The notes beneath the pieces are model-generated. The model worked only from the letters and a program-made list of their open reading frames with translations, was not told where the DNA came from and ran no database searches. The translations under genes and the position numbers were made by a program. DNA of 64,000 nt from Alphaproteobacteria bacterium (GTDB lineage Bacteria; Pseudomonadota; Alphaproteobacteria; Acetobacterales; Acetobacteraceae): positions 1 to 64,000 of the forward strand of contig JAPLOI010000019.1 of assembly GCA_026400815.1 (NCBI GenBank). The letters are read 5' to 3'. Shown here one piece after another: positions 18,041-47,146 of this stretch. Within the stretch, counting starts at the first letter, position 1. Every line of letters starts with the position of its first letter.

Positions 18041-18242
18041 GATCGCCCGCGCCCAGGGGCGCGGTGCGTCGGCTTCGCTCGGTGCGGTGCTCAAGTTTGG
18101 CATCACCGCTAACAATGCACGATGCAATGCCGGTGGACAAGGAAATTTTCAGGTTTATGTGAAATTTTCAGTTAGAAAAAATATCTCAAGTGCCGCTGCG
18201 ATCCGTGAGCAGGCCGGGCGTTCCGGACACCCAAAGCCCCAA

Positions 18243-18355
18243 TAACGAGAAACGGCGGGCCGTAGCCCGCCGCTCATTCGGTGCGCCCGGAGGCACTTGT
18301 TAACGGAAGGCCCCCATTCCCCCATCGGCTATGCGTTTGGAACGTAGGGTTTCCA
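18243..18355 (-). ncRNA. tracrRNA of the type II-C CRISPR system
   Basis: Plus-strand bases 18309-18331 are an exact 23-nt match to the reverse complement of the CRISPR repeat, so the minus strand carries the anti-repeat. Beyond the perfect duplex come a small internal mismatch, a CCG pairing block, a bulge and a further AAC/GTT pairing, as in other crRNA:tracrRNA duplexes. Downstream on the minus strand are an imperfect hairpin (18281-18296) and an 8-bp perfect terminator stem (18253-18260 with 18265-18272). That stem is followed by TTTCTCGTTATT. A TTGACC -35-like box lies at 18385-18390. Transcription is divergent from cas9. The ends are estimates. Confidence 0.87.
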
Positions 18356-18398: not shown

Positions 18399-19100
18399 AT
18401 GTCATATCGTCTTGCCCTCGACATCGGCGCCAATTCGATCGGTTGGTGCGTTCTCAGCCTAGGTACGACCGGCTCGCCCGCCGGTATCGTCGACATGGGT
18501 GTACGTGTCTTCCCAGACGGGCGCGACCCCAAGACACTGGCTTCCCTTGCCGCAGAACGGCGTTTAGCGCGTGGAATGCGCCGCCGCCGCGATCGGTATC
18601 TCCAGCGGCGCGAAGCACTTTTGAATGCGCTGCAACGGCACGGTTTGATGCCGGCTGATCCAGCAGGACGGCAGGCGCTGGTAGCGCTTAATCCCTATGC
18701 ATTCCGGCGTGATGCGCTGCATCGGCGGCTCGATCCTCATGAACTCGGTCGTGCAGTCTTTCACCTGAATCAACGGCGGGGCTTTCAAAGTAATAGAAAA
18801 ACAGATCGGTCGAACGAGGCGGAACAGGGCAAGATCAGGACGGCGTCTGACAATCTGAAGCAGGAGCTTGCCCGCTCTGGCCACCCGACGCTGGGCGCGT
18901 GGCTGGCCGATCGGCAAGACAAGGCACAAGATGTCCGTACTCGTCTCGTGGGGAGTGGCGTTAAGGCTACTTATGCCTTTTACCCCACACGGGATCTGAT
19001 CCGTGCTGAGTTCGACGCGATCTGGCATGCACAGGCCGGCTGGAACGCATCCCTGACGCCTGCTGCATATGATGCCATTGCCGGTATCCTGTTTCACTAG
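18399..19100 (+). CDS. Cas9 N-terminal fragment (RuvC-I, bridge helix, start of REC lobe)
   Basis: If TAG is read as stop, this 233-residue product is made. It contains RuvC-I with catalytic Asp8, the Arg-rich bridge helix (RRLARGMRRRRDRYLQRR) and the first part of the REC lobe, ending ILFH. It lacks HNH, RuvC-II, RuvC-III and the PAM-interacting region, so it cannot cleave alone. The ATG has no clear Shine-Dalgarno sequence. Confidence 0.8.
   Translation: MSYRLALDIGANSIGWCVLSLGTTGSPAGIVDMGVRVFPDGRDPKTLASLAAERRLARGMRRRRDRYLQRREALLNALQRHGLMPADPAGRQALVALNPYAFRRDALHRRLDPHELGRAVFHLNQRRGFQSNRKTDRSNEAEQGKIRTASDNLKQELARSGHPTLGAWLADRQDKAQDVRTRLVGSGVKATYAFYPTRDLIRAEFDAIWHAQAGWNASLTPAAYDAIAGILFH
19098..19100 (+). 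other. In-frame amber codon within cas9
   Basis: The context is CTG TTT CAC TAG CGT CCC TTG AAG, read in the cas9 frame as L-F-H-stop-R-P-L-K. TAG is also used as the natural terminator of lptB, the second DUF2059 gene, dctM and the tartrate dehydratase gene here, so general amber recoding is unlikely. Confidence 0.9.
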
Positions 19101-19106
19101 CGTCCC

Positions 19107-21542
19107 TTGAAGGACCCGCCTGTCGGGCGATGCTGGCTCAAACCAGACCAACCTCGCGCGCCAAAGGCCTTGCCAGTCGCGCAGGCCTTTCGCATCGCGC
19201 AGGATCTATCGCATTTCGCGATCCGCCGCGTGGGCGAGCCTGATGCGGCACTGACCGACAAGCAGCGAGCACTGCTGGCCGGGTCTTTGTTGGCCGGCAA
19301 GGACTTGTCTTTCAACCAGATCAGGAAGCTTCTTGGACTCTCGAGCGGGGAAACCTTTAATCTCGAATCAAAGGCGAGAGAAAAGCTGAAGGGCGCCGAA
19401 ACGGCGGCACGTCTGGCAGGCAAGGACAAGCCGCTCTCTGCAATCTGGCCGGGCCTGGGATCGGAGTTGCAAGAGGCCGTGGTGCTCGCGCTGCTCAATT
19501 CGACGACGCCGGACCAAGCCGTGGCGGCACTTGTTGCCCTTGGTCTTCCCTCCGATCAGGCCAGGCAAGCCGAGCGCATCACTTTGCCCGACGGGCACGC
19601 CGCACTCTCCGCCGATGCGATGCGAGCCATCCTGCCGCATCTTGAGGCCGGGATGACCTACGACAAGGCTGTGATTGCAGCTGGCTTCCGACATCACTCC
19701 GACGACCGCGACGGCGTCATACTTGATCAGTTGCCATATTACGGCGCGGTGCTTGCTGAGCGCATCGGTACAGGCTCCGGCAAACCCGAGGACACTGACG
19801 AAAAGCGCCTTGGCCGTGTGCCTAATCCGACGGTTCACGTGGCCCTGAACCAGCTGCGCCATGTGGTGAACGCGGTCATCAAGCGGCACGGTCACCCCAC
19901 GCAAATCGTCGTCGAGGTGTTGCGGGAGCTGAACCAGTCTGCGTTCGAGCGCCGACGGATCGAGAAGGAGCAGGCGGAGAACGCAAAGCGGCGCGAGGCG
20001 TGGGCCAGGGATCTCGTAGCCCTTGGGCAACGTGTGAACGGGCGGAACCTTGCCTTGATGCGGCTATGGCATGAACAGTCCGGCGACCCCAAGGAACGAA
20101 TCTGTCCCTACTCCGGGGAACGCATTTCGCTCGCCCGGCTGTTCTCGGGCGAGGTGGAGCAGGATCACATCCTCCCCTTTGCCATTACGCTGGACGATAG
20201 TTTTGCCAACCGTGTCGTTGTGCTGCGCGAGGCGAACCGCCGCAAGTCGCGGCAGACTCCCCACCAGGCCTTTGGCGCCTCGCCGGAATGGCCAGACATC
20301 GTGCAGCGCGCTGCGCAGCTTCCCGGAAGCAAGGCTTGGCGTTTCGCACCGGACGCACTGCAGAAATGGCAGGGTGAGCACAGTGATTTCCTGGCCCGTC
20401 ATCTGACCGACAGCGCCTATCTGGCGCGTCTTGCGCGGCTCTATTTGCGCGCGGTCTGCGACCCCGACCAAGTCTATACGGTGCCGGGGCGCCTGACGTC
20501 GCTGCTCCGCCAGTCGCTTGGGCTGAACAGCGCGGCGCTGCTCGGCAAGGGTGGAGCGCGCAAAGAGCGCAACGATCACCGCCACCACGCAATTGATGCG
20601 CTGACGGTTGGCCTGGTGGACCGCTCGCTATTGCAGCGCGTGGCGACAGCGGCTGGCCGAGCGGAAGATCGCGGCCGACGGCTGATGGACGATCTGGGTG
20701 AGCCGTGGCCGGGTTTTCAGGCGGAGGCAGCATCTCGGTTGCGTGCTGTGGTTGTCTCGTTCAAGCCAGACACGGCACCAGCTGGCCGGCTGCACAACGA
20801 TACCGCCTATGCGACGCTCGTGGATGCCGGGCCGAAAGCGGCCAATGTCGCGCATCGGGTACCGATCCAGGCGCTGGCTGGCTGGAAGCCGGAGGATGTG
20901 CGCGACGCCGTCGCCGATTCACAACTGGCAGATCGCATCATCGGCGCGATCGGCAGTGCCGATGCCAAGCCGGCGCAGGCGGCCGCGCTCGGTGCAATCG
21001 TGCACGATGCCGCTGGGCGCACAGTGCGACGAGTGCGGGTCAGCGAAAGGCTAGACGGCACTGCCGCCATCGCCGACCGGCGGACTGGGCGCCCCTACAA
21101 GCGCGTCAAGCTGGATGCCAACCACCGGGTGGAGTTCTGGCGCTTGCCGCCAAGGGCGGGAAAGCTCGGCAAGGTGCAGATGCTGGTGGTGCCGATGTTG
21201 CATGCTGCGATGGATGCCGAGGCTGCGCGCCTTGGACGCCCTGTCGTCGATCGGCGCCTGCATCCCGCTGCGAAGCTTTTGATGCGTCTGCACAAGGACG
21301 ATGTAGTGGCTTTTGGTGTAGGTGAGGCTAGGCGACTGCTGAGGGTGGTAAAATTTCGGGAGGGGCAGGTAAATCTGGCCGAGGTTCACGAGAGTGGAAA
21401 CCTCAAAGCACGCGATGCGGACAAGGCAGACCCGTTTAAGTATGTGAACGCGAGCATAAGCCGCTTCGCAGCTGAAGGCGCCCGGAAGGTCTTCGTGGAC
21501 CCATCCGGTCGGGTCTTCGACCAGGGCTCCTTGCCATGGTGA
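19107..21542 (+). CDS. Cas9 C-terminal fragment (REC remainder, RuvC-II, HNH, RuvC-III, PI)
   Basis: The open frame resumes straight after the amber codon. The first possible start is TTG at 19107, with no visible ribosome-binding site, so independent translation is doubtful. The 811-residue segment holds the rest of the REC lobe, RuvC-II (fragment residue about 270), HNH (about 354), RuvC-III (about 494-497) and the C-terminal PAM-interacting region. All catalytic residues are intact and there are no further stops, so decay would have to be recent. Confidence 0.75.
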   Translation: MKDPPVGRCWLKPDQPRAPKALPVAQAFRIAQDLSHFAIRRVGEPDAALTDKQRALLAGSLLAGKDLSFNQIRKLLGLSSGETFNLESKAREKLKGAETAARLAGKDKPLSAIWPGLGSELQEAVVLALLNSTTPDQAVAALVALGLPSDQARQAERITLPDGHAALSADAMRAILPHLEAGMTYDKAVIAAGFRHHSDDRDGVILDQLPYYGAVLAERIGTGSGKPEDTDEKRLGRVPNPTVHVALNQLRHVVNAVIKRHGHPTQIVVEVLRELNQSAFERRRIEKEQAENAKRREAWARDLVALGQRVNGRNLALMRLWHEQSGDPKERICPYSGERISLARLFSGEVEQDHILPFAITLDDSFANRVVVLREANRRKSRQTPHQAFGASPEWPDIVQRAAQLPGSKAWRFAPDALQKWQGEHSDFLARHLTDSAYLARLARLYLRAVCDPDQVYTVPGRLTSLLRQSLGLNSAALLGKGGARKERNDHRHHAIDALTVGLVDRSLLQRVATAAGRAEDRGRRLMDDLGEPWPGFQAEAASRLRAVVVSFKPDTAPAGRLHNDTAYATLVDAGPKAANVAHRVPIQALAGWKPEDVRDAVADSQLADRIIGAIGSADAKPAQAAALGAIVHDAAGRTVRRVRVSERLDGTAAIADRRTGRPYKRVKLDANHRVEFWRLPPRAGKLGKVQMLVVPMLHAAMDAEAARLGRPVVDRRLHPAAKLLMRLHKDDVVAFGVGEARRLLRVVKFREGQVNLAEVHESGNLKARDADKADPFKYVNASISRFAAEGARKVFVDPSGRVFDQGSLPW

Positions 21543-22543
21543 GCCCGCTCGGCCGAGTGGTGGAGATCAACGAGGAGGGGCGCCACCTGTCAAAGGAACG
21601 CGGTTTCTTCGTAGTTCAGTCTGGTCGCGAGGAGGTTGGCCGAGTGCCGCTCGACGACCTGATGGCCGTCATGGCGACGGCGCGGGGTACGTCTGTATCG
21701 GTCGCGTTGCTCTCGGCATTGGCCGACCGCGGCGTTCCCTTCATCGTGCCGGGAGCGAACTTCGCCCCTGCAGCGCTGCTTTGGCCTGTGGAAGGGCACC
21801 ATGCTGTCTCCAAGCGCATGGCAGCGCAAATTGACCGCACTCGGCTTATGGAGAAGCGCCTTTGGCAGCAGGTAGTGGCAGCCAAGATCAGACGCCAGGG
21901 CTGGGCGCTGCATCGGGCTGGCATGCCCTCTGGTGCCTTCGGGCGCCTAGCACGCTTGGTCAAGCCCGGAGATCCCGAGAACATTGAGGCTCAGGCCGCG
22001 CGCCGCTACTGGCCGCTTCTGATGGGTGCCGCGTTCCGGCGCGACCAGGAGGCACCTGGTGCCAACGCACAACTCAACTACGGCTATGCGGTGCTTCGTG
22101 CTGCGGTGGCGCGCGCCATCTGCGCCTCAGGATTGCATCCCGGTCTCGGCCTGTTTCATCGGAACTCGCAGAATTCTATGCCTCTTGTTGACGACCTGAT
22201 GGAGCCGTTTCGGCCTATAGTCGACGATGCCGTGCGTTGCCTACTTGCCGATGGTGTGACGGATGTCACCATGGCCGCGAAACGCAGTCTGGTCGCGCTG
22301 CTATGGCAGGACGAGGTCTCAGCAGCCGGTACCTCGCCACTGGCGACGGCAATCCTGCGTACTGCACAGAGTCTGGCGGAAAGCTTCCTGTCCGGGTCGG
22401 CAATGCTTGCCTTTCCGTTCCTCGAGCTGGGGGGCCGCGATGATGGCGACGATGCTGAGCGGCTATCGGATCATGTGGATGGTCTTGATGTTCGATCTAC
22501 CCGTGATGACAAAGCCACAGCGCAAAGCGGCGGCGAAGTTTAG
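21536..22543 (+). CDS. cas1: CRISPR-associated endonuclease Cas1 (type II)
   Basis: The integrase has the active-site pattern Glu (ENIEAQAARRYWPLL), His (GLHPGLGLFHRNSQN) and Asp (LVDDLMEPFRP). With Cas2 it inserts new spacers. Its start ATG overlaps the cas9 stop by 7 nt. The protein is 335 residues; the recognisable family ends near residue 300 (LAFPFLELGG). The last 35 residues (RDDGDDAERLSDHVDG and on) are hydrophilic and overlap cas2 in another frame. This tail may come from a lost stop codon or small frameshift, or be a tolerated extension. Confidence 0.94.
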   Translation: MVSPLGRVVEINEEGRHLSKERGFFVVQSGREEVGRVPLDDLMAVMATARGTSVSVALLSALADRGVPFIVPGANFAPAALLWPVEGHHAVSKRMAAQIDRTRLMEKRLWQQVVAAKIRRQGWALHRAGMPSGAFGRLARLVKPGDPENIEAQAARRYWPLLMGAAFRRDQEAPGANAQLNYGYAVLRAAVARAICASGLHPGLGLFHRNSQNSMPLVDDLMEPFRPIVDDAVRCLLADGVTDVTMAAKRSLVALLWQDEVSAAGTSPLATAILRTAQSLAESFLSGSAMLAFPFLELGGRDDGDDAERLSDHVDGLDVRSTRDDKATAQSGGEV

Positions 22544-22781
22544 ACAATGGCTCCTCGACGAGGGCTGGGAGATGAGCCAATTCAGCGTTTACCTGCGTTG
22601 GTGCGTCGGCAAGGAGCAGGGCAACGCCCGGCTGCGCATGATAGCTCGGCAAGTGCCGAAGGATGGCAAAGTCCATGTGCTGATGGTGACCGACAAACAG
22701 TTCGAGACGATGACGGTGTTCCGCGGTCCAGTGCGGGAGAAAAGGCGGATGGGACGCCATGAGCAGCTGACTTTGTTTTGA
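22452..22781 (+). CDS. cas2: CRISPR-associated protein Cas2 (type II)
   Basis: The protein matches type II Cas2. It has an N-terminal beta strand with the conserved Asp (MWMVLMFDLPV), FSVYLRWCVGKEQGNARLR, KVHVLMVTDKQFE and a C-terminal EQLTLF. Cas2 dimers bridge two Cas1 dimers in the spacer-integration complex. I chose the ATG at 22452 (MLSGYRIMW), where family members begin; ATGs at 22440 and 22443 are also in frame. Any of these overlaps cas1 by about 90-104 nt, much more than the usual few bases. Confidence 0.93.
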   Translation: MLSGYRIMWMVLMFDLPVMTKPQRKAAAKFRQWLLDEGWEMSQFSVYLRWCVGKEQGNARLRMIARQVPKDGKVHVLMVTDKQFETMTVFRGPVREKRRMGRHEQLTLF

Positions 22782-22848: not shown

Positions 22849-23538
22849 AGCCTAGCCGATGGGGGAATGGGGGCCAACCGCAACTACGCGTCTCCACAGA
22901 TCTAGGACGTCCTAGCCTAGCCGATGGGGGAATGGGGGCCAACCGCAACTGACCGTCTGGGGGTTGTTCTCCGGCGCCAGCCTAGCCGATGGGGGAATGG
23001 GGGCCAACCGCAACATATCGTTCCGCCGGTTGGCAGGTTGTGCCAGCCTAGCCGATGGGGGAATGGGGGCCAACCGCAACCTACGAGGCTAGCGTGTTCC
23101 CGCCCATGGAGCCTAGCCGATGGGGGAATGGGGGCCAACCGCAACATCTTGGTCGCGAACCACAGAGGATCGAACAGCCTAGCCGATGGGGGAATGGGGG
23201 CCAACCGCAACGTCGGCAGCGCGGCGCGGCGCACGTTGTTCAGCCTAGCCGATGGGGGAATGGGGGCCAACCGCAACACACGGTTGCACCGCGTCCAGCA
23301 ACGTTTAGCCTAGCCGATGGGGGAATGGGGGCCAACCGCAACTTGCCAGCGTCTTCAGCCCCCGCGCCGTGGAGCCTAGCCGATGGGGGAATGGGGGCCA
23401 ACCGCAACGGCGCCACGAGCGAAGGCTACGCATGAGTAGCCTAGCCGATGGGGGAATGGGGGCCAACCGCAACCGCTCAGCCGCGCCACGCTCAGCCGCA
23501 CTAGCCTAGCCGATGGGGGAATGGGGGCCAACCGCAAC
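22849..23538 (-). CRISPR. Type II-C CRISPR array: 11 identical 36-nt repeats, 10 spacers
   Basis: On the plus strand the repeat reads AGCCTAGCCG, then ATGGGGGAATGGGGGCC, then AACCGCAAC. Repeats start at 22849, 22914, 22979, 23045, 23110, 23176, 23242, 23307, 23373, 23438 and 23503, and I see no base differences among them. Spacers are 29-30 nt and all distinct. Type II repeats in crRNA sense begin GTTG, and the tracrRNA anti-repeat is on the minus strand, so crRNAs are read from the minus strand. The crRNA-sense repeat ends in TAGGCT. This resembles the position of the repeat-embedded -10 box of Neisseria II-C arrays, but that is only suggestive. Confidence 0.97.
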
Positions 23539-36293: not shown

Positions 36294-37907
36294 ATGCCAA
36301 CCGCCGCCGAAACCCTCGTCGCCTTCCTCGCCCAGCAGGGCGTCACCCGGGCCTTCTGCGTCCCCGGTGAATCCTATGTCGCCGTGCTGGATGCCCTGCA
36401 CGCCCACCCCAGCATCGACCTCGTCACCTGCCGTCACGAATCCGGCGCTGGCTTCATGGCCATGGCCGATGCCCGCCTGACCGGCGTGCCGGGCGTCGCC
36501 CTGGTCAGCCGCGGCCCCGGCGCCTGCAACGCCAGCATCGCGGTGCACACCGCCATGCAGGATTCCGTTCCGCTCCTGCTCATCGTCGGCCAGGTGGAAG
36601 CGCGCGACCTGCGGGCCCGTGCGTTCCAGGAAATCGACTACACCAGGATGTTCGACGGCGTCGCCAAGTTCACCGCCGAGGCCACCAACGCCGATCAGGT
36701 GCCCGAGCTGATCTCCCGCGCCTGGGCCGCCATGCTGACCGGCATCCCTGGCCCCGCCGTGCTCGCCCTGCCGGAAGACATCCTCGCCGAAGCCTGCACC
36801 CGCACGCCCCTCGCCCCGGTCCTCTCCAGCGACGCCGCCCCCTCCCCTGATACCGCGGACCAACTCGCCGAACTCCTGCGCGGCGCCGAGCGCCCCATCG
36901 TCATTGCCGGCGGCGACCTGGACCGCCCCGGCGGGCGCGAGGAGCTATTGGCCTTCGCCGAACGCTGGCAACTCCCGGTCGCCGTCAGCTTCCGCCGTCA
37001 GGACCTCTTCCCCAACGCCCATCCGCTCTACGCCGGGGACATGGGCCTCTCCAACCCCAAGCCGCAGCGCGACGCCTTCGCCTGCGCCGACCTGATCCTC
37101 GCCCTCGGCACCCGCCTCGGCGACATCACCACCCAGGGCTACAGCTTCCCCGAACCCGGCCAGCGCCTGGTCCATGTCTGCCCCGACGCCTCCTGGCTCG
37201 GCTGGCGCTTTGAAACCCACCTGGCCCTGGCCGTCCACGCGCTGCCGACCATCGCTGCCCTCTCTGCCCGCAACGCCGCCGCCCCGCCCGGCCGCGCCGC
37301 CTGGAACGCCGAACTCCGCGCCCTGCACAGCGCCGATGCCGCCTGGACGCCGCGCACGGCCGACGACGGCGTGGTCTTCCCCAACCTCGTCGCCGCCCTC
37401 GGCCCGCATCTGCCCGCGGACGCCATCGTCACGCTCGATGCCGGAACTTTCGGCGCGCCCTTCTACCGCAAGATCGCCTGGAAGCTGGGCCAGCGCCTGC
37501 TTGCCCCCATCGCCGGCTCCATGGGCTACGGCATGCCCGCCGCCGTTGCCGCCGCCCTGCGCCACCCCGGCCGACCCGTCATCTGCGCCGTGGGCGATGG
37601 TGGCTTCCTGATGACCGGCAGCGAACTCGCCGTCGCCGCCGCCCGCGGTGCGCCGCTGAAGGTGCTGCTCAGCGAAAACGGCAGCTACGCCTCCATCCGC
37701 ATCCACCAGGAACGCGCCCACCCCGGCCGCACCAGCGGCACCGACCTGGTGAACCCCGACCTCGCCCTGATGGGCAAAGCCTATGGCTATCCCGTGATGG
37801 TGGTGCGTGAGGAATCCGAAATTCCGGCGCTGATCGAGGCGCTCACGGCACCGGGGCCGTTGTTCGCCGTGGTCCACTCTTCCTTGCGTGCGGTGTTGCC
37901 GAAGTAA
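36294..37907 (+). CDS. Thiamine pyrophosphate-dependent enzyme, acetolactate synthase-like
   Basis: The 537-residue protein has the N-terminal PYR domain with the cofactor-activating Glu (TCRHESGAGFMAMADARLTG). The middle domain and C-terminal PP domain follow, the latter with the TPP-binding motif GDGGFLMTGSELAVA extending to ENGSYASIR. It resembles acetolactate synthase, benzoylformate decarboxylase and sulfoacetaldehyde acetyltransferase-type proteins; the substrate is not evident. I chose the ATG at 36294 by the domain start. It is followed by a full B-central-A hairpin module. Confidence 0.85.
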   Translation: MPTAAETLVAFLAQQGVTRAFCVPGESYVAVLDALHAHPSIDLVTCRHESGAGFMAMADARLTGVPGVALVSRGPGACNASIAVHTAMQDSVPLLLIVGQVEARDLRARAFQEIDYTRMFDGVAKFTAEATNADQVPELISRAWAAMLTGIPGPAVLALPEDILAEACTRTPLAPVLSSDAAPSPDTADQLAELLRGAERPIVIAGGDLDRPGGREELLAFAERWQLPVAVSFRRQDLFPNAHPLYAGDMGLSNPKPQRDAFACADLILALGTRLGDITTQGYSFPEPGQRLVHVCPDASWLGWRFETHLALAVHALPTIAALSARNAAAPPGRAAWNAELRALHSADAAWTPRTADDGVVFPNLVAALGPHLPADAIVTLDAGTFGAPFYRKIAWKLGQRLLAPIAGSMGYGMPAAVAAALRHPGRPVICAVGDGGFLMTGSELAVAAARGAPLKVLLSENGSYASIRIHQERAHPGRTSGTDLVNPDLALMGKAYGYPVMVVREESEIPALIEALTAPGPLFAVVHSSLRAVLPK

Positions 37908-37911
37908 GCGC

Positions 37912-38028
37912 GTTCTTTTTTGGAAAAAAAGAACCAAAAAACTTTTATCCATTTGGTGCGGAGAAACTCGGCCTCTTCGCACCAAGCGGACAAAAGTCTT
38001 TTTGCTTCGTTTTCTTCAGAAAAAGAAG
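37912..38028. repeat. Three-hairpin intergenic module, site 3 (reverse orientation)
   Basis: It consists of a B hairpin (37912-37934, GTTCTTTTTT/AAAAAAGAAC), a central hairpin (37953-37964 with 37974-37985, 11 of 12 pairs plus a wobble) and an A hairpin (38005-38028, CTTCGTTTTC/GAAAAAGAAG). It fills the gap between two convergent genes, 5 nt from one stop and 7 nt from the other. It probably works as a two-way transcription end. Confidence 0.7.
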
Positions 38029-38034
38029 ACTTCC

Positions 38035-39486
38035 TTACCCTAGCTTCGCCTTCAGCGCCGCATTGACCAAGGCGGGGTTCCCTTTCCCCGCCATCGCCTT
38101 CATCACATTGCCCACGAAGAACCCGAACAGCTTATCCTTGCCGGAGCGGTATTCCGCCACCTTCTCCGGGTTGGCCGCGATCACCGCATCCACCGCGGCA
38201 TCGATCGCCCCGGTATCCGTCACCTGCCGCAGCCCGCGCTCATCCACGATGGCGGCCGGGCCCTTGCCGGTTTCCACCATCGCCTCGAACACCTCCTTGG
38301 CGATCTTCCCGTTGATGGTGCTGTCCGCCATCAGGTCCAGCAATTGGCCCAGCGCGGCGGCCGACACCGGCGGATCTTCGATCGTGCGCCCGGTGCGGTT
38401 CATCGCCGCGAAGAAATCGCCGGTCACCCAGTTCGCCGCGATCTTGGCATCACGGCCCTTGGCAACGCCTTCGAAGAACAGCGCCGTCGCCTGCTCCGCC
38501 ACCAGCACGCCGGCGTCGTAGCGGGAGAGCCCGTACTCCGCCATGAACCGCGCCTGCTTGGCATCCGGCAGTTCCGGTAGTGCGGCCTTCAGCCCGTCCA
38601 CCCAGCCCTGCTCCAGCACCACCGGCAACAGGTCCGGATCGGGGAAGTAGCGGTAGTCGTGCGCATCCTCCTTGGAGCGCATGGAGCGGGTTTCGCCCCG
38701 GTTCGGGTCGAACAGCCGGGTTTCCTGCTGCACCTCGCCGCCGCCTTCCCACACCGCGATCTGCCGCAGCGCCTCCACCTCCACCGCCTGCATCACGAAG
38801 CGCACGGAGTTGACGTTCTTCACCTCGCAGCGCGTGCGATACGCCTCGCCGGCCTTGCGCACCGAAACGTTCACGTCGGCCCGCAGCGAGCCTTCCTCCA
38901 TGTTCCCGTCGCAGGTGCCGAGGTAGCGCAGGATGGAGCGCAGCTTCTTGACGTACGCCCCCGCTTCCTCCGGCGAGCGGATATCCGGCTCGCTCACGAT
39001 CTCCATCAGCGCCACGCCGGAGCGGTTGAGGTCGATGAAGCTCTTGGTCGGGTGCTGGTCATGCACGGATTTGCCGGCATCCTGCTCCAGATGCAGCCGC
39101 GTGATCCCCACCTCCTTGGTGGACCCATCCGCAAGCTCGATCTCCACCACGCCGGTGCCCACGATCGGGTGCTCGAACTGGCTGATCTGGTAGCCCTGCG
39201 GCAGGTCCGCGTAGAAATAGTTCTTCCGGTCGAACCGGCTGACAAGGTTGATCTGCGCGTTCAACCCCAGCCCGGTCCGCACCGCCTGGGCGATCGCCTC
39301 GCGGTTCGGCACCGGCAGCATCCCGGGAAACGCCGCGTCCACGAAGCTCACCTGCGAGTTCGGGCTCGCGCCATACGCGGTGGCCGCCCCGCTGAACAGC
39401 TTGGATTGGCTGATCACCTGGGCATGAACCTCCAGGCCCACCACCACTTCCCACGGCCCCGTGGAACCCTCGATCGTATAGGCCAT
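38035..39486 (-). CDS. gatB: Asp-tRNA(Asn)/Glu-tRNA(Gln) amidotransferase subunit B
   Basis: The 483-residue protein has the GatB kinase-like domain ([53 protein letters not shown]). The C-terminal tRNA-binding YqeY-like domain is about residues 335-480. GatB activates the misacylated tRNA for amidation. I chose the ATG at 39486 by family start; the 50 residues upstream in frame overlap gatA and are not conserved. It is the last gene of gatC-gatA-gatB. Confidence 0.96.
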
Positions 39487-39490
39487 CGCC

Positions 39491-40978
39491 TTATCCCCCC
39501 GCCCCGGCGCCAGCCCGAATGCCGGGCAGCGCGGTGAAGCCCGCCGCCCGCTCCAGCGCCGCACCCACGGCGAACACCGTCTCTTCGTCGAACGGGCGGC
39601 CCAAGACCTGCAACCCCAGCGGCAGCCCCTGCGCATCCAGCCCCGCCGGCACGGAAAGCCCGGGAATGCCGCTCATGTTCGCTGGCACGGTGAAGATGTC
39701 GTTCAGATACATCGTAATGGGATCATCCATCTTCTCGCCCTGCGCGAACGCGGCCGAAGGCGCCGTCGGCGTCACCAGCGCATCCACCGTCCGGAACACG
39801 TCGGTGAAATCCTTCAGGATGAGCGCCCGCACCTTCTGTGCCTTGAGGTAATAGGCATCGTAGTATCCGGCCGAGAGCACATAGGTCCCGATCAGCACTC
39901 GCCGCCGCACCTCCGCCCCGAACCCTTCGGCGCGCGTGTTTTCGTACAGCGAGGCCAAATCCTCCCCCGCCGTCCGCGCCCCGAACCGCACGCCGTCATA
40001 GCGCGCGAGGTTCGAAGACGCCTCCGCCGGCGCCACGATGTAGTATGTCGCCAGCCCATACTTCGTGTGCGGCAGGGAGACATCGACAATCTCCGCCCCC
40101 GCCTCGCGCAGCCAGCCCAGCCCCTGCTGCCACAGCGCCTCGATCTCGGCCGGCATGCCCTCGGAGCGATACTCCTTCGGCACGCCAATCCGCAGCCCCT
40201 TCACGCCCCGCCGGCAGGCGGCGGCGAAATCCGGCACCGGCAGATCCGCACTGGTGGAATCCTTCGGATCGAACCCGGCCATCGATCGCAGCAGGATCGC
40301 CGCATCCTCCACATTGCGCGCCACCGGCCCCGCCTGGTCCAGCGAGGACGCGAACGCCACCACCCCCCAGCGCGAGCAGCGCCCATAGGTCGGCTTGATC
40401 CCGGTGATGCCGCAGAAGCTCGCCGGCTGGCGGATCGACCCACCGGTATCCGTCGCCGTCGCCCCCAGCGCGATCCGCGCCGACACCGCCGCGGCCGACC
40501 CGCCGGAGGAGCCACCCGGCACCAGCGCCCGGTTATCCCCCCGCCGCGTCCACGGCGAGGTCACCGGCCCGAAGGCGCTGGTCATGTTGGAGGAGCCCAT
40601 GGCGAACTCATCCATATTCGCCTTGCCCAGGAAGATCGCCCCGTCGCGCAGCAGATTCGCCGTCACGGTGCTCTCATAGGGCGGAATGAATGGCTCCAGG
40701 ATGCGGCTGCCCGCCGTGGTGCGCACGCCCTGGGTGCAGAACAGGTCCTTGATCGCCAGCGGAATCCCCGCCAACGGCCCGGCATCGCCACGCGCCAATG
40801 CCGCATCCGCCGCCAGCGCCTGTGCCCGCGCCGCCTCGCCTGTTACGAGCACATAGGCGTTCAGCTTCGGGTTCACCGCCTCGATCGCCGCGAGATACGC
40901 GTCGGTCAGCTCCACGGCGGAAAACTTGCGTGCCCGCAGCCCGTCGCGGGCCTCGGCCAAAGTCAGATCGGTCAGCAT
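39491..40978 (-). CDS. gatA: Asp-tRNA(Asn)/Glu-tRNA(Gln) amidotransferase subunit A
   Basis: The 495-residue amidase-signature protein has the Lys-Ser-Ser triad in context ([30 protein letters not shown]-like [13 protein letters not shown]). It releases ammonia from glutamine for the amidotransferase complex. Its ATG overlaps the gatC stop (TGATG); a GTG one codon upstream is also possible. It lies 4 nt before gatB. Confidence 0.96.
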
Positions 40979-41265
40979 CACTCAACCACCTTCGGCACCG
41001 CGAAAAATTCGCCATTGCGGTCGGGCGCATTGCCCAGCACCGCATCCGCGATCCCGCCATCGCTCACCACATCCTCGCGCAGCCGCAGCGCCATCTGCGT
41101 ACCGCCGGTCAGCGGTTCCACGCCGGTCACGTCCACCTCATTGAGCTGCTCGATCCAGCCCAGGATGGAATTCAGGTCCGTGCGCAGCGCCTCCACCTGG
41201 GCCTCATCCACGCGGATGCGGGCCAGTTTGGCGATGCGGCGAACGGTCGCGGGGTCGAGCGACAT
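40978..41265 (-). CDS. gatC: Asp-tRNA(Asn)/Glu-tRNA(Gln) amidotransferase subunit C
   Basis: The 95-residue GatC has the typical N-terminus [16 protein letters not shown] and the C-terminal [21 protein letters not shown]. It stabilises the GatA-GatB interaction. The much longer in-frame ORF upstream of this ATG lies antisense to ruvX and is spurious. It is divergent from ruvX with about 45 nt between the starts. Confidence 0.94.
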
Positions 41266-41819: not shown

Positions 41820-42233
41820 ATGGCGACGATCACCGAAACCGCCCACGCCTTCTTCGAAGCCTGCGAGGCCGGCAAGGGCTGGGCTGCCTGCGCCGAATAC
41901 TGCACGCCAGACGCCACCTTCTCTGCCCAGTCGGAGCCGCTGGTGGATGTGAAGACCCTGTCCGCCTATTGCGAGTGGATGAAGGGCCTGTTCGGCCCGA
42001 TCCCCGATGGCCGCTACGACCTCAAATCCTTCGCCACCGACAACGTGCGCAACAACGTCAGCGCCTATGCCGTGTTTCATGGCACCAACACCGGCGCCGG
42101 CGGCCCGCCCCCCACCGGCAAGGCCGTGGCGACCGACTACGTCTATGTCATGCAGTTCACTGGCGACAAGATCAGCCACATGACCAAGATCTGGCACAGC
42201 GGGCTTGCGCTGCAGCAGCTCGGCTGGGCCTGA
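41820..42233 (+). CDS. NTF2-like / SnoaL-type small protein
   Basis: The 137-residue protein fits the NTF2-like alpha+beta cone fold. It has an N-terminal helix (AHAFFEACEAGKGWAACAEYC), strands around PDATFSAQ, and a C-terminal ISHMTKIWHSGLALQQLGW typical of SnoaL/ester-cyclase-like proteins. No catalytic role can be assigned. It lies 35 nt after ruvX and 13 nt before an A hairpin. Confidence 0.75.
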   Translation: MATITETAHAFFEACEAGKGWAACAEYCTPDATFSAQSEPLVDVKTLSAYCEWMKGLFGPIPDGRYDLKSFATDNVRNNVSAYAVFHGTNTGAGGPPPTGKAVATDYVYVMQFTGDKISHMTKIWHSGLALQQLGWA

Positions 42234-42246
42234 AGGAAGCAGGATT

Positions 42247-42362
42247 CTTCTTTTTCTGAAGAAAAAGAAGCAAAAAGACTTTTATGAAACGATGCGGAGA
42301 GACTCGATCTCTCCGTATCTTAGGAATGAAAGTTTTTTGGTTCTTTTTTTCAAAAAAGAACC
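42247..42362. repeat. Three-hairpin intergenic module, site 4
   Basis: It consists of an A hairpin (42247-42270, perfect 10-bp stem, loop TGAA), a central hairpin (42291-42302 with 42308-42319, 11 of 12 pairs plus a wobble, loop CTCGA) and a B hairpin (42339-42362, 11-bp stem). It fills the gap between the convergent NTF2-like and TetR genes. The central stem shares GCGGAGA and ACTCG with the one at site 3. Confidence 0.72.
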
Positions 42363-42368
42363 GCTTTC

Positions 42369-43016
42369 TTATTTTTCCTTCAGGTAAGCCAACACGGACT
42401 CCACCAGCATCCCCCGATGCCGCGCCCTAAGCGCCGGCGCCAGCGGGTCCTGCCCGAACACGGTGGACAGCGTGTGCCGGTTCGACACGCGGAAGAAGCA
42501 GAACGCCGTCATCAGCAGGTGCACGTCGATCGGCTCGGCGTCGTGCCGGAACACCCCCTCCGCCTGGCCGCGCGCCAGGATCGCGCCGATCGTGCTGATC
42601 ACCGTGGCGTTCAGCCCCTGGATGGTTTCGGAGCGCGCAATGTGGGCGGCGCGGTGGATGTTCTCGATGCTCACCAGCCGCACGAAGCGCGGGTTGGCTT
42701 CCTCGTAGTCGAAGACGAACTCCGCCAGCCGCCGGATTGCCGCCTCGGGCGCCAGCGCCTCCAGGCCCAGCTCGCGCTCGGCGGTACGGATGCCGGCATA
42801 GGCATGTTCCAGCACCGTGCGGTACAGCCCATCCTTGCTGGCGAAGTAGTAGTAGATCATCCGCACCGTGGTGCCGGCCCGCGCCGCGATCGCATCCACC
42901 CGCGCCCCATCCAGCCCGTTGTCGCTGAACTCGATGAAGGCGGCATCCAGAATGCTGCGCTGCGTCGCCACGGGGTCACGGGCACGCCGCACCGGAAGAG
43001 GGGGGGCATCGTTCAT
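42369..43016 (-). CDS. TetR-family transcriptional regulator
   Basis: The 215-residue regulator has an N-terminal helix-turn-helix (ILDAAFIEFSDNGLDGARVDAIAARAGTTVRMIYYYFASKDGLYR) and a C-terminal ligand-binding domain. The conserved EYY-like helix after the HTH is IYYYFASK. An ATG at 43031 would add five residues. It is divergent from an ABC importer operon, and a perfect 24-bp inverted repeat lies between them, so it probably represses both. Confidence 0.9.
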   Translation of the reverse strand: MNDAPPLPVRRARDPVATQRSILDAAFIEFSDNGLDGARVDAIAARAGTTVRMIYYYFASKDGLYRTVLEHAYAGIRTAERELGLEALAPEAAIRRLAEFVFDYEEANPRFVRLVSIENIHRAAHIARSETIQGLNATVISTIGAILARGQAEGVFRHDAEPIDVHLLMTAFCFFRVSNRHTLSTVFGQDPLAPALRARHRGMLVESVLAYLKEK

Positions 43017-43065
43017 GCCGCCTTGTCCCATGCTGCCACCGCCCTGCCTACCCGGCCGGTTGACT

Positions 43066-43089
43066 TGAATTAAGCGCTTACTTAATTCA
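43066..43089. promoter_or_regulatory. Perfect inverted repeat, probable TetR operator
   Basis: Nine-base arms TGAATTAAG and CTTAATTCA are separated by CGCTTA, in the divergent region between the tetR start and the importer start. It overlaps a TTGACT -35-like box (43060-43065) reading toward the importer. It is markedly AT-rich for this genome. Confidence 0.72.
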
Positions 43090-43133
43090 CCCCCAGTGCC
43101 CGCACACCACCGCGCGGGCAACGGGGAAACGTC

Positions 43134-43802
43134 TTGGGCCACAGCCTGGATTTCAGCGTGGTGTACGACAACGCGCCGGCGCTGCTCTGGGGCTGCCTCG
43201 GTACCATCGGCCTCGCTTTGGCCGGCATGGCGCTCGCCCTCGTCATCGGCCTCCTCGGCGTGCTCGCCCGCGCCTCCCGCTTCGCACCCCTTCGCATCGC
43301 GACGGTCGCCTTCATCGAGGTGATCCGCAACACGCCTTTCCTGGTGCAGATCTTCTTCATCTTCTTCGTGCTGCCCTATGCCGGGCTGCGGCTGAACCCC
43401 ACTATCACCGCCATCATCGCGCTCGGCATCAACGGCGGCGCCTATGCCATCGAGATCATCCGCGGCGGCGTGCAATCCATCCCGCGCGGCCAGATCGAAG
43501 CCGGCCTCGCCCTCGGCCTGCACCGGCTGCAGGTCTTTCGCCTCGTCGTCCTCCGCCCCGCCCTGCGCGCGATCTACCCGGCGCTGACCTCGCAGTTCGT
43601 GCTGCTCACCCTCACCACCTCCATCTGCACCTCGGTCGCGGCGTATGAGCTCACCTCGGTGGCCCAGCGCATCGAAAGCGACAGCTTCCGCAGTTTCGAG
43701 GTCTATTTCAGCATCACCTTCCTCTACCTCGCCATGTCCTGGCTGCTGATGACCGGTTTCGCCGCCATTGCCGGCCGCGCCTTTGCGTGGCCGACGAGAT
43801 GA
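43134..43802 (+). CDS. Amino-acid ABC transporter permease (HisM/GlnP type)
   Basis: The 222-residue membrane protein has the polar-amino-acid permease signature (FIEVIRNTPFLVQIFFIFFVLP) and the EAA loop (GQIEAGLALGLHRLQVFRLVVLRPALR). It starts with TTG at 43134; no upstream ATG fits. It overlaps the next permease by an ATGA. It is the first gene of an importer operon controlled by the adjacent TetR regulator. Confidence 0.88.
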   Translation: MGHSLDFSVVYDNAPALLWGCLGTIGLALAGMALALVIGLLGVLARASRFAPLRIATVAFIEVIRNTPFLVQIFFIFFVLPYAGLRLNPTITAIIALGINGGAYAIEIIRGGVQSIPRGQIEAGLALGLHRLQVFRLVVLRPALRAIYPALTSQFVLLTLTTSICTSVAAYELTSVAQRIESDSFRSFEVYFSITFLYLAMSWLLMTGFAAIAGRAFAWPTR

Positions 43803-45305: not shown

Positions 45306-46319
45306 GTGACACGGCTGCGCCTCGCCCTGGTCGGCGCCGGTCTGATCGGCCGGCGCCACGCCGCCCATATCCAGGCCGACCCCGGCCTGGTGCTCTCCGC
45401 CGTGATCGATCCCGCGGCGGAGGCCCAGGCCTGGGCCGAGGGGCAGGGCGCCGCCTGGCACCCCACGCTCGATGCGCTGCTGTCCGGCACCCCGCCGGAC
45501 GGCGCCATCCTCGCCACCCCCAACGCCCTGCACGTGCCCCAGGCTCTCGCTTTGGTCGCAGCTGGCATCCCGATGCTGGTGGAAAAGCCGATCGCCGACA
45601 GCGTGGAGGCGGCCGAACGCCTCGTCGCCGCCGCGGCGGCAAAGGGCGTGCCGTTGCTCGTCGGCCACCACCGCCGCCACAACCCGATCATCGCAGCCGC
45701 CAAGCAGGCGATCGACGCGGGCCGCCTCGGCCGCCTCACCGCCATCCACGCCACCTGCTGGCTCGCCAAGCCGCCCGGCTATTTCGAAACCCCCTGGCGC
45801 CGCCAGCCCGGCGCCGGCCCGGTGCTGATCAACCTGATCCACGACATCGACCTGCTGCGCCATCTCTGCGGCGACATCACCGACGTCCAGGCCATGGCCA
45901 GCAATGCCGTGCGCGGCCACCCGGTGGAGGAAACCGCCACCGCCCTGCTGCGCTTCGCCAACGGCGCGCTGGGCACCCTCACCGTGTCTGACACGGTGGC
46001 CGCCCCCTGGAGCTGGGAGTTCACCAGCGGCGAGAACCCGGCCTACACCCGCACCACGGAGAGCTGTTACCTGATCGGCGGCACCGAGGCCTCGCTCTCC
46101 CTGCCCGATCTCCGCCTTTGGCGCCACGAGGGCACACCGGACTGGTGGCGCCCGCTCCACGCCGAGGCCCTCTCGGCCGCCGAAGCCGATCCCCTCGCCC
46201 GCCAGCTGCGCCACTTCGCCGAGGTGATCCAGGGCCGCGCCACGCCGCTCGTCTCCGGCCAGGACGGGCTGGAGGCGCTGCGTGTCGTCGCCCGTATCCA
46301 TCAGGCGTCCCGCGCATGA
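45306..46319 (+). CDS. Gfo/Idh/MocA-family NAD(P)-dependent oxidoreductase
   Basis: The 337-residue protein has an N-terminal Rossmann motif (LALVGAGLIGRRHAAHIQ), the EKPI motif (MLVEKPIADSVEAAERL) and a C-terminal domain with LINLIHDIDLLRHLCGDI; the HDID segment carries the usual catalytic His. It starts with GTG, one base after the preceding stop. The substrate is probably a polyol or sugar-acid derivative, and its position suggests it acts on the imported compound. Confidence 0.87.
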   Translation: MTRLRLALVGAGLIGRRHAAHIQADPGLVLSAVIDPAAEAQAWAEGQGAAWHPTLDALLSGTPPDGAILATPNALHVPQALALVAAGIPMLVEKPIADSVEAAERLVAAAAAKGVPLLVGHHRRHNPIIAAAKQAIDAGRLGRLTAIHATCWLAKPPGYFETPWRRQPGAGPVLINLIHDIDLLRHLCGDITDVQAMASNAVRGHPVEETATALLRFANGALGTLTVSDTVAAPWSWEFTSGENPAYTRTTESCYLIGGTEASLSLPDLRLWRHEGTPDWWRPLHAEALSAAEADPLARQLRHFAEVIQGRATPLVSGQDGLEALRVVARIHQASRA

Positions 46320-47146
46320 TCTCCGGTACCACACGCCTCATCGCCCATGTCGGCTACCCCACCGCCGGCTTCCGCTCCCCGCGCATCTACAATCCCTGGT
46401 TCGCCGCGCGGGGAATCGACGCGGTGGTGATGCCGATGGGCGTGGAACGCCCGCTTTGGCCCGACCTCATCCGCCCGCTTTTCCGCCTGCGCAACATCAT
46501 CGGCGCGCTGGTCACCATGCCGCTGAAGGTCGATACGGCCGCGCTGGTCGATGATCTCTCCGTCACCGCCCGCATCGCCGGCGCCTGCAACGCCGTGCGC
46601 GCCACGCCGGAGGGAAAGCTGGAAGGCGAGATGTTCGATGGCGAAGGCTTCGTCGCCGGCATGCGCCGCGCGGGCCGCGATCCCGCCGGGCTGCGCGCCC
46701 TGGTGGTCGGCGCCGGCGGCGTCGGCAGCGCCATTGCCGCCTCCCTCGCCCACGCCGGCGTAGGCGCCCTCGCCCTGCACGATGTCAACGCCCAAGCGGC
46801 CGAAGCGCTCGCCACCCGGCTACGCCAGCACTACCCCGCGTTGGCACTCGCCACCGGCAGCACCGATCCCGCCGGCCACGACATCGTCGTCAACGCCACG
46901 CCGCTGGGCATGCACGAGACCGATCCCCTGCCGCTCGATGCCACCCGCCTCACCCCGACGACCTTCGTCGGCGAGGTGGTGCTGCGTCCATCGCCGACGC
47001 CCCTGCTGCGCGAAGCTCTCGCCCGCGGCTGCCACGTGCAGCAGGGGGAGGACATGCTGTTCGAGCAGATCCCCGCCTACCTCGCCTGGTTCGGCCTTGG
47101 CCCCGCCACTCCGGCGCAGCTGCGCGATGTGGCGCTGCCTCAGTAG
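46316..47146 (+). CDS. Shikimate dehydrogenase-like protein (AroE paralogue)
   Basis: The 276-residue protein has the AroE NAD(P)-binding motif (LVVGAGGVGSAIAASLAHAG), NATPLGM and a catalytic Lys in VTMPLKVD. The N-terminal substrate-binding segment is diverged. Where AroE has a Ser-x-Ser shikimate contact, this protein reads GYPTAGFRSPRIYN. It is therefore more likely a catabolic paralogue than the biosynthetic enzyme. It overlaps the oxidoreductase gene by an ATGA. Its stop overlaps the end of the convergent dppF-like gene by 7 nt. It ends with TAG. Confidence 0.82.
   Translation: MISGTTRLIAHVGYPTAGFRSPRIYNPWFAARGIDAVVMPMGVERPLWPDLIRPLFRLRNIIGALVTMPLKVDTAALVDDLSVTARIAGACNAVRATPEGKLEGEMFDGEGFVAGMRRAGRDPAGLRALVVGAGGVGSAIAASLAHAGVGALALHDVNAQAAEALATRLRQHYPALALATGSTDPAGHDIVVNATPLGMHETDPLPLDATRLTPTTFVGEVVLRPSPTPLLREALARGCHVQQGEDMLFEQIPAYLAWFGLGPATPAQLRDVALPQ

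Follow-up and report, generated by a model that had tools for sequence, protein, structure and literature searches.

Organization of the locus

The analysed stretch of DNA (the window) comprises 64,000 nucleotides of a 177,462-base contig (JAPLOI010000019.1, C55) from the 5.11-Mb draft genome of an Alphaproteobacteria bacterium of the family Acetobacteraceae (GCA_026400815.1; 89 contigs). It carries a CRISPR-Cas locus with cas9, cas1, cas2, a CRISPR array and a trans-activating CRISPR RNA (tracrRNA), in which the cas9 gene is interrupted by a stop codon (Table 1). The cas9 gene (18399-21542) contains one TAG codon, and the same frame is open on both sides of it up to the terminal TGA. Both pieces exceeded the cut-off of the Cas9 equivalog family TIGR01865; the N-terminal piece scored 159.7 bits over profile positions 1-229 and the C-terminal piece 367.5 bits over positions 263-1069. 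The Pfam domains HNH_4, RuvC_III and Cas9_a were found in the C-terminal piece, which had a single match in the genome of the organism. The residues D8, E506, H590, N613 and D733, which we take to be the catalytic residues of Cas9, were invariant in eight relatives, and none of them is among the differences from the closest relative. In an alignment to the solved Cas9 9ar4, the TAG site paired with a QRP.

A preliminary description of this DNA had reported a single in-frame amber codon at the conserved QRPL motif, five intact nuclease residues, and intact cas1, cas2, tracrRNA and 11 identical repeats. The amber codon was confirmed by a gapless alignment to a sister gene and by the glutamine column in relatives (see below), the nuclease residues by the comparisons just given, and the remaining parts by family matches, anti-repeat pairing and repeat comparison. 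The same description had placed the break between RuvC-I with the bridge helix and the rest of the protein; this has to be corrected, since some of the REC lobe lies in the N-terminal piece as well.

Table 1. Features of the CRISPR-Cas locus, in positions of the window.
Feature	Positions	Strand	Description and basis
Cas9 N-terminal piece	18399..19097	+	233 codons from ATG 18399; RuvC-I, bridge helix, first part of REC lobe; open reading frame, TIGR01865
In-frame TAG	19098..19100	+	at conserved glutamine of QRPL motif; sequence and column in relatives
Cas9 C-terminal piece	19101..21542	+	813 open codons, TGA 21540-21542; rest of REC, RuvC-II, HNH, RuvC-III, C-terminal region
cas1	21536..22543	+	start within cas9 end; TIGR03639 type II Cas1, open reading frame
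cas2	22443..22781	+	start within cas1; TIGR01573
CRISPR array	22849..23538	-	11 identical 36-nt repeats, 10 spacers of 29-30 nt
tracrRNA (ends approximate)	18240..18340	-	anti-repeat about 18299-18335, then hairpins and T-rich stretch

Type II-C systems have cas1 and cas2 beside cas9 and lack csn2 and cas4. In the window, a Cas9 with RuvC and HNH domains, interrupted by the TAG, is adjoined by cas1 and cas2 and accompanied by a tracrRNA with an anti-repeat. In the stretch between cas2 and the array, the only one inspected for this purpose, neither csn2 nor cas4 nor any other cas gene was found. Because of this gene order, the locus is assigned to type II-C on its sequence features. The pairing of the tracrRNA anti-repeat with the repeat is predicted at -68 kcal/mol, and the tracrRNA region is identical to that of the sister genome at 167 of 174 positions (96%). 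An Rfam scan gave no match over a gathering score, and a weak Xoo2 match overlaps the tracrRNA. A search of plasmid records yielded no match. The sense of the CRISPR RNA (crRNA) was taken to be the minus strand, based on the flank side in the viral matches described below.

Comparison with related cas9 genes

The closest relative was found in the same genus, in the metagenome-assembled genome (MAG) "Rhodospirillales bacterium RE-23may17-764" (CANHKG010000010.1; G204), hereafter the sister, whose cas9 is open over its whole length. The two genes align over 3144 nt without any insertion or deletion at 95.1% nucleotide identity, and the TAG is the sole difference that breaks the frame. Among the nine genomes of the genus, three matched in the search, namely the organism itself, the sister and a third genome (G203) with two partial matches at 33-35% identity.

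The codon was further compared in 80 genome loci, the best of 185 that encode relatives. At the TAG column, glutamine was present in all 76 loci having a residue (CAG in 53, CAA in 23), and the remaining four of the 80 showed a gap. In a second, overlapping set, 28 of the 29 distinct genes with a residue carried glutamine and one carried arginine; two further rows were gapped. The preliminary description had asked for a comparison with cas9 of sister strains; the related genes compared here gave an open gene in the same genus and glutamine in the column.

Among the 80 relatives, 74 were full length in one frame, three ran off their contigs (L079, L096 and L116) and three were frameshifted (L087, L093 and L113). 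Apparently broken cas9 genes thus occur in such data, though in another form than a TAG. The genes that look frameshifted come from a Dehalococcoidia MAG, from Ancylobacter lacus and from a Rhodobacteraceae MAG, and also include L012 from a further genome (G014), whose pieces lie in two open reading frames (ORFs).

Selection on cas9

The ratio of nonsynonymous to synonymous divergence (dN/dS), calculated pairwise against the sister, was 0.089 for cas9, with 0.151 before the stop and 0.079 after it. The corresponding values were 0.083 for cas1, 0.138 for cas2, and 0.110 and 0.048 for two neighbouring genes. Both sides of the stop show purifying selection. When the differences were polarised with outgroups, the window lineage had 20 nucleotide changes in nonsynonymous and 57 in synonymous codons, and the sister lineage 13 and 45, respectively, with 18 left unassigned (Fisher p 0.69). 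Another polarising rule placed 14 of the 31 differing residues on the window lineage and nine on the sister lineage, leaving eight unassigned. Where all seven outgroups agreed with one of the pair, the window departs at residues 102, 273 and 954 and the sister at 504 and 629. The amino-acid changes on the window lineage are thus in slight excess, which is not significant.

Had the window branch been free of constraint, it should have gathered about 160 nonsynonymous changes, by arithmetic from dN/dS and the polarised counts. Since only 20 were counted, any neutral period was short; a rough estimate puts it at no more than about one tenth of the time elapsed since the split from the sister. No significant excess of amino-acid changes was seen that would mark relaxed constraint since the lesion, as expected if the lesion is very young.

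Synonymous divergence from the sister varied along the locus, being 0.09 before the stop and 0.18 after it in cas9, 0.28 in cas1 and 0.03 in cas2. This unevenness along 18399-22781 suggests recombination.

Spacers and their viral matches

The IMG/VR database was searched with exact 22-24-nt patterns of eight spacers (1-5 and 7-9). Five of the eight (spacers 2, 3, 4, 5 and 7) had matches, and spacers 1, 8 and 9 had none at this pattern length. Over their full length, the matching spacers fitted eight viral contigs with 0 or 1 mismatch. On the 3' side of the protospacer, in crRNA sense, the flank was NGGCGC for spacers 2, 3, 4 and 5 and NGGGGC for spacer 7; GGCGC starts at 0.6% of the positions (481 of 80,410) in four matched viral contigs. 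Spacers 2 and 4 (window 22914-23110) match the same virus on the same strand, 92 bases apart, in three contigs (L187, L188 and L191), and one contig matched by both resembles two phage records with an annotated terminase. A working type II system leaves a common flank on the 3' side of its protospacers. Given the common flank and the viral matches of 0-1 mismatch, adaptation by this system was recent. From these sequences, NGGNGC is the probable flank preference of this compact Cas9; the string 'NGGNGC' was not found in the related literature among the matches listed.

None of the ten spacers of the window was found in the parts of the sister array compared (11 complete spacers from two contigs, the closest fit having at least 9 mismatches), so that the spacer content has been renewed since the lineages separated. 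The repeat itself differs by one base between the arrays, starting with AGC in all 11 window copies and with AGT in 12 of 13 sister copies (L034 and L164).

Integrity of neighbouring genes

Gene integrity around the locus was compared with the sister in both directions. From sister to window, 58 mechanically chosen sister ORFs of at least 100 amino acids were used, 41 of which matched the window. Twenty-two were intact over more than 95% of their length (10,014 amino acids), 12 were flagged, and seven at an identity of 80% or less were dropped. One of the 12 flagged ORFs was cas9, and eight failed the codon-position criterion for a real frame. In p3, p4, p7 and p9 the changes pile up in codon position 1, so that the real frame is another one and these were rejected as broken genes. 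Also rejected were p6 and p8, with ambiguous codon positions and the stop lying in a false upstream extension; their Pfam domains (TetR and shikimate dehydrogenase) lie well inside and are covered by the open window ORFs 42369-43523 and 46118-47146. For p1 and p10 the codon positions were likewise ambiguous and no Pfam match was obtained, p10 having been tested in part. The remaining three flagged ORFs were discarded: one lies opposite intact minus-strand ORFs, one differs in its start and contains no stop, and in the third the stop precedes an open ORF of 522 amino acids.

From window to sister, 37 of 40 ORFs matched; 23 were intact (11,268 amino acids), ten were flagged and four were dropped. 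Two of these ten passed the codon-position criterion, one of them (39491-40981) being left as a candidate. The other was rejected as a broken gene, the stop in the sister lying far ahead of its Pfam domains. A dispersed, palindromic repeat of about 130 bp, matching on both strands, was observed in the window at 37901-38037 and 42231-42370 and in tens of listed places in the sister genome.

Interpretation of the interrupted cas9

In our judgement, a single nonsense mutation at the conserved glutamine has probably inactivated the Cas9 of this organism in the very recent past. This explanation rests on the stop itself, the intact surroundings, the intact sister gene, selection on both sides of the stop, and the phage-matching spacers with their common flank. 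The TAG stands at a conserved sense codon and the gene of a close relative is intact, as in a recent pseudogene. The preliminary description had offered four options, namely very recent loss, read-through, a split Cas9 and a base-call error. Recent loss is the best supported of them, by the gapless intact sister, the selection on both sides, the lack of a significant amino-acid excess and the glutamine column. For a split Cas9, neither a clear second start nor the same break in any of the 80 relatives was found.

Residue 233, in the REC lobe, would be the last one translated from the mutated gene. A product without HNH, RuvC-II, RuvC-III and the C-terminal region is predicted to cleave nothing, so that the organism would have no working Cas9 and interference would stop. 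The 2.4 kb of untranslated message would probably lower the expression of cas1 and cas2 as well, since the start of cas1 overlaps the end of cas9 and that of cas2 lies within cas1. With less Cas1 and Cas2, adaptation would fade too. The array would be left as a record of recent phage encounters, and the purifying selection seen would be an echo of recent function. Such an event would most likely be of an ordinary kind, a very young loss of immunity.

Several points weigh against this explanation. The TAG is known from one draft assembly of a single genome of its species, and among the nine genomes of the genus a close cas9 was found in only one besides its own. None of the 80 relatives has a comparable in-frame stop. 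Apart from the stop, cas9 shows no direct sign of decay, which is expected for a young lesion but equally for an error, and the polarity on cas1 and cas2 is a prediction.

An alternative is that the TAG arose in base calling or assembly, or represents one of the alleles in a mixed population, and that the Cas9 of the organism is intact or mostly so. We regard this as unlikely but deserving of serious attention. In its favour, all other parts of the locus are intact and under selection, and the assembly is a draft in 89 contigs. On the other hand, an error would have to be a single substitution without an insertion or deletion, and the approximately 55 kb compared with the sister revealed no further clearly coding gene with a break. 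That cas9 is the lone such gene lowers the chance of a single error without removing it, the more so because the locus had been singled out for its oddity at the first stage.

That the amber codon is tolerated or used, with Cas9 made at a low level by read-through or from two assembling fragments and immunity damped, appears improbable, and a split or read-through Cas9 is without positive support. Read-through, by a suppressor tRNA or by natural leakiness, would still give some Cas9 and low-level immunity, and the purifying selection after the stop and the fresh phage spacers would fit it. A recent mutation accounts equally well for the selection signal. An Rfam tRNA search of the genome gave 42 hits, 41 of which were analysed as loci with ARAGORN, the 42nd being a tRNA-Leu in the window. 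The amber suppressor tRNA for which the preliminary description had proposed to search did not appear: none of the 42 hits has a CTA anticodon, in a tRNA list that is incomplete, as six expected anticodons were not seen (Ser TGA and CGA, Gly GCC, Arg CCT, Ile GAT and Ala TGC). A pattern search for a CTA anticodon with a canonical T-arm returned four places, all of which are other things (two tRNA-Glu, one tRNA-Arg and one non-tRNA). Read-through is considered highly improbable. Apart from this, a tRNA-like gene with a UCA anticodon was observed directly after tRNA-Arg(TCT) on a 3348-base contig (G000:C60, L157 336-410). It was called tRNA-SeC by ARAGORN, was matched in part by the Rfam tRNA model, and would read UGA, not UAG. 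A natural split Cas9, whose second part would be made from its own start and whose two parts would assemble on the guide RNA, is given hardly any credence. A TTG lies 6 nt past the stop, and the TAG site falls in a loop between helices in the predicted structure of the intact sister Cas9, a poor model with a mean predicted local distance difference test (pLDDT) of 58.7 and a predicted template modelling score (pTM) of 0.33, of which only this local loop is considered, and with little weight. The anti-Shine-Dalgarno pairing energy of in-frame ATG, GTG and TTG codons was calculated from the stop to 20300, and no internal start signal was detected near the break. The TTG has no such pairing upstream of it, by a measure that is weak (the annotated cas9 start scores only -2.9), so that poor pairing is no proof. 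The best internal starts were GTG 19479 and 19482 (-5.9 and -5.8) and ATG 19653 (-5.6), and starting at either GTG would cost about 125 residues. The same break was seen in none of the 80 relatives, and, within limited search terms, neither this locus nor a naturally split Cas9 was the subject of any paper among the matches listed.

Equally far-fetched is a loss of Cas9 as an escape from autoimmunity caused by a spacer against the organism's own genome. It has a precedent in Mycoplasma arthritidis, for which one report describes a frameshifted cas9 together with a self-targeting spacer (PMC6882279). In the present genome no convincing spacer match was found, although only two of 70 first-look candidates were scored and weak self-matches could be missed. 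Apart from the array, a single match in this genome is listed, on contig C78; it straddles the artificial junction between spacers 7 and 8 of the joined-spacer query and differs from spacer 7 at eight positions, most of them towards the flank. With the same query, 211 of 397 family genomes matched at E values up to 0.05. The best match outside the organism's own genome, among the matches listed, had an E value of 1.2e-4, and several span spacer joints; these matches were taken as chance without checking each.

If the recent inactivation of Cas9 by the nonsense mutation is real, the locus has been caught at or just after its loss, with memory, guide-RNA machinery and selection signal still fresh and the effector cut. 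The probable NGGNGC flank preference together with the close intact sister would provide a usable lead for enzyme testing.

Comparison with known systems

The sister locus (CANHKG010000010.1) resembles that of the window in the order cas9-cas1-cas2, in the tracrRNA and in the repeat, which differs by one base in most copies, and its Cas9 is 97% identical in the C-terminal part. It differs in that its cas9 is open throughout and that the array parts compared hold none of the ten window spacers. An engineered split SpCas9, divided at 573/574 (PMC4513872), resembles the window in that two Cas9 fragments result, in the latter case on paper. In contrast to it, the window has neither an intein nor a dimeriser nor a clear second start, and its break lies at another position in the protein; the proximity to engineered split sites suggested in the preliminary description finds no support in this one published split.

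Broken systems have been described in mollicutes: at least 8 of 21 were predicted to be degraded, and in one case a self-targeting spacer adjoins the broken cas9 (PMC6882279). In house finch isolates of Mycoplasma gallisepticum, four truncated forms of Cas9 are reported (PMC11893278). A very recent loss in the window would fit the view of CRISPR-Cas as often lost, such alleles being already documented in these dated isolates of another species. The MgCas9 case differs in the organism and in having dated isolates and population data, whereas the window represents one genome. In its form V2, a single base change has likewise turned a CAG codon for glutamine, located in the REC domain, into TAG, and the rest of the locus is present, as it is in the window (PMC11893278).

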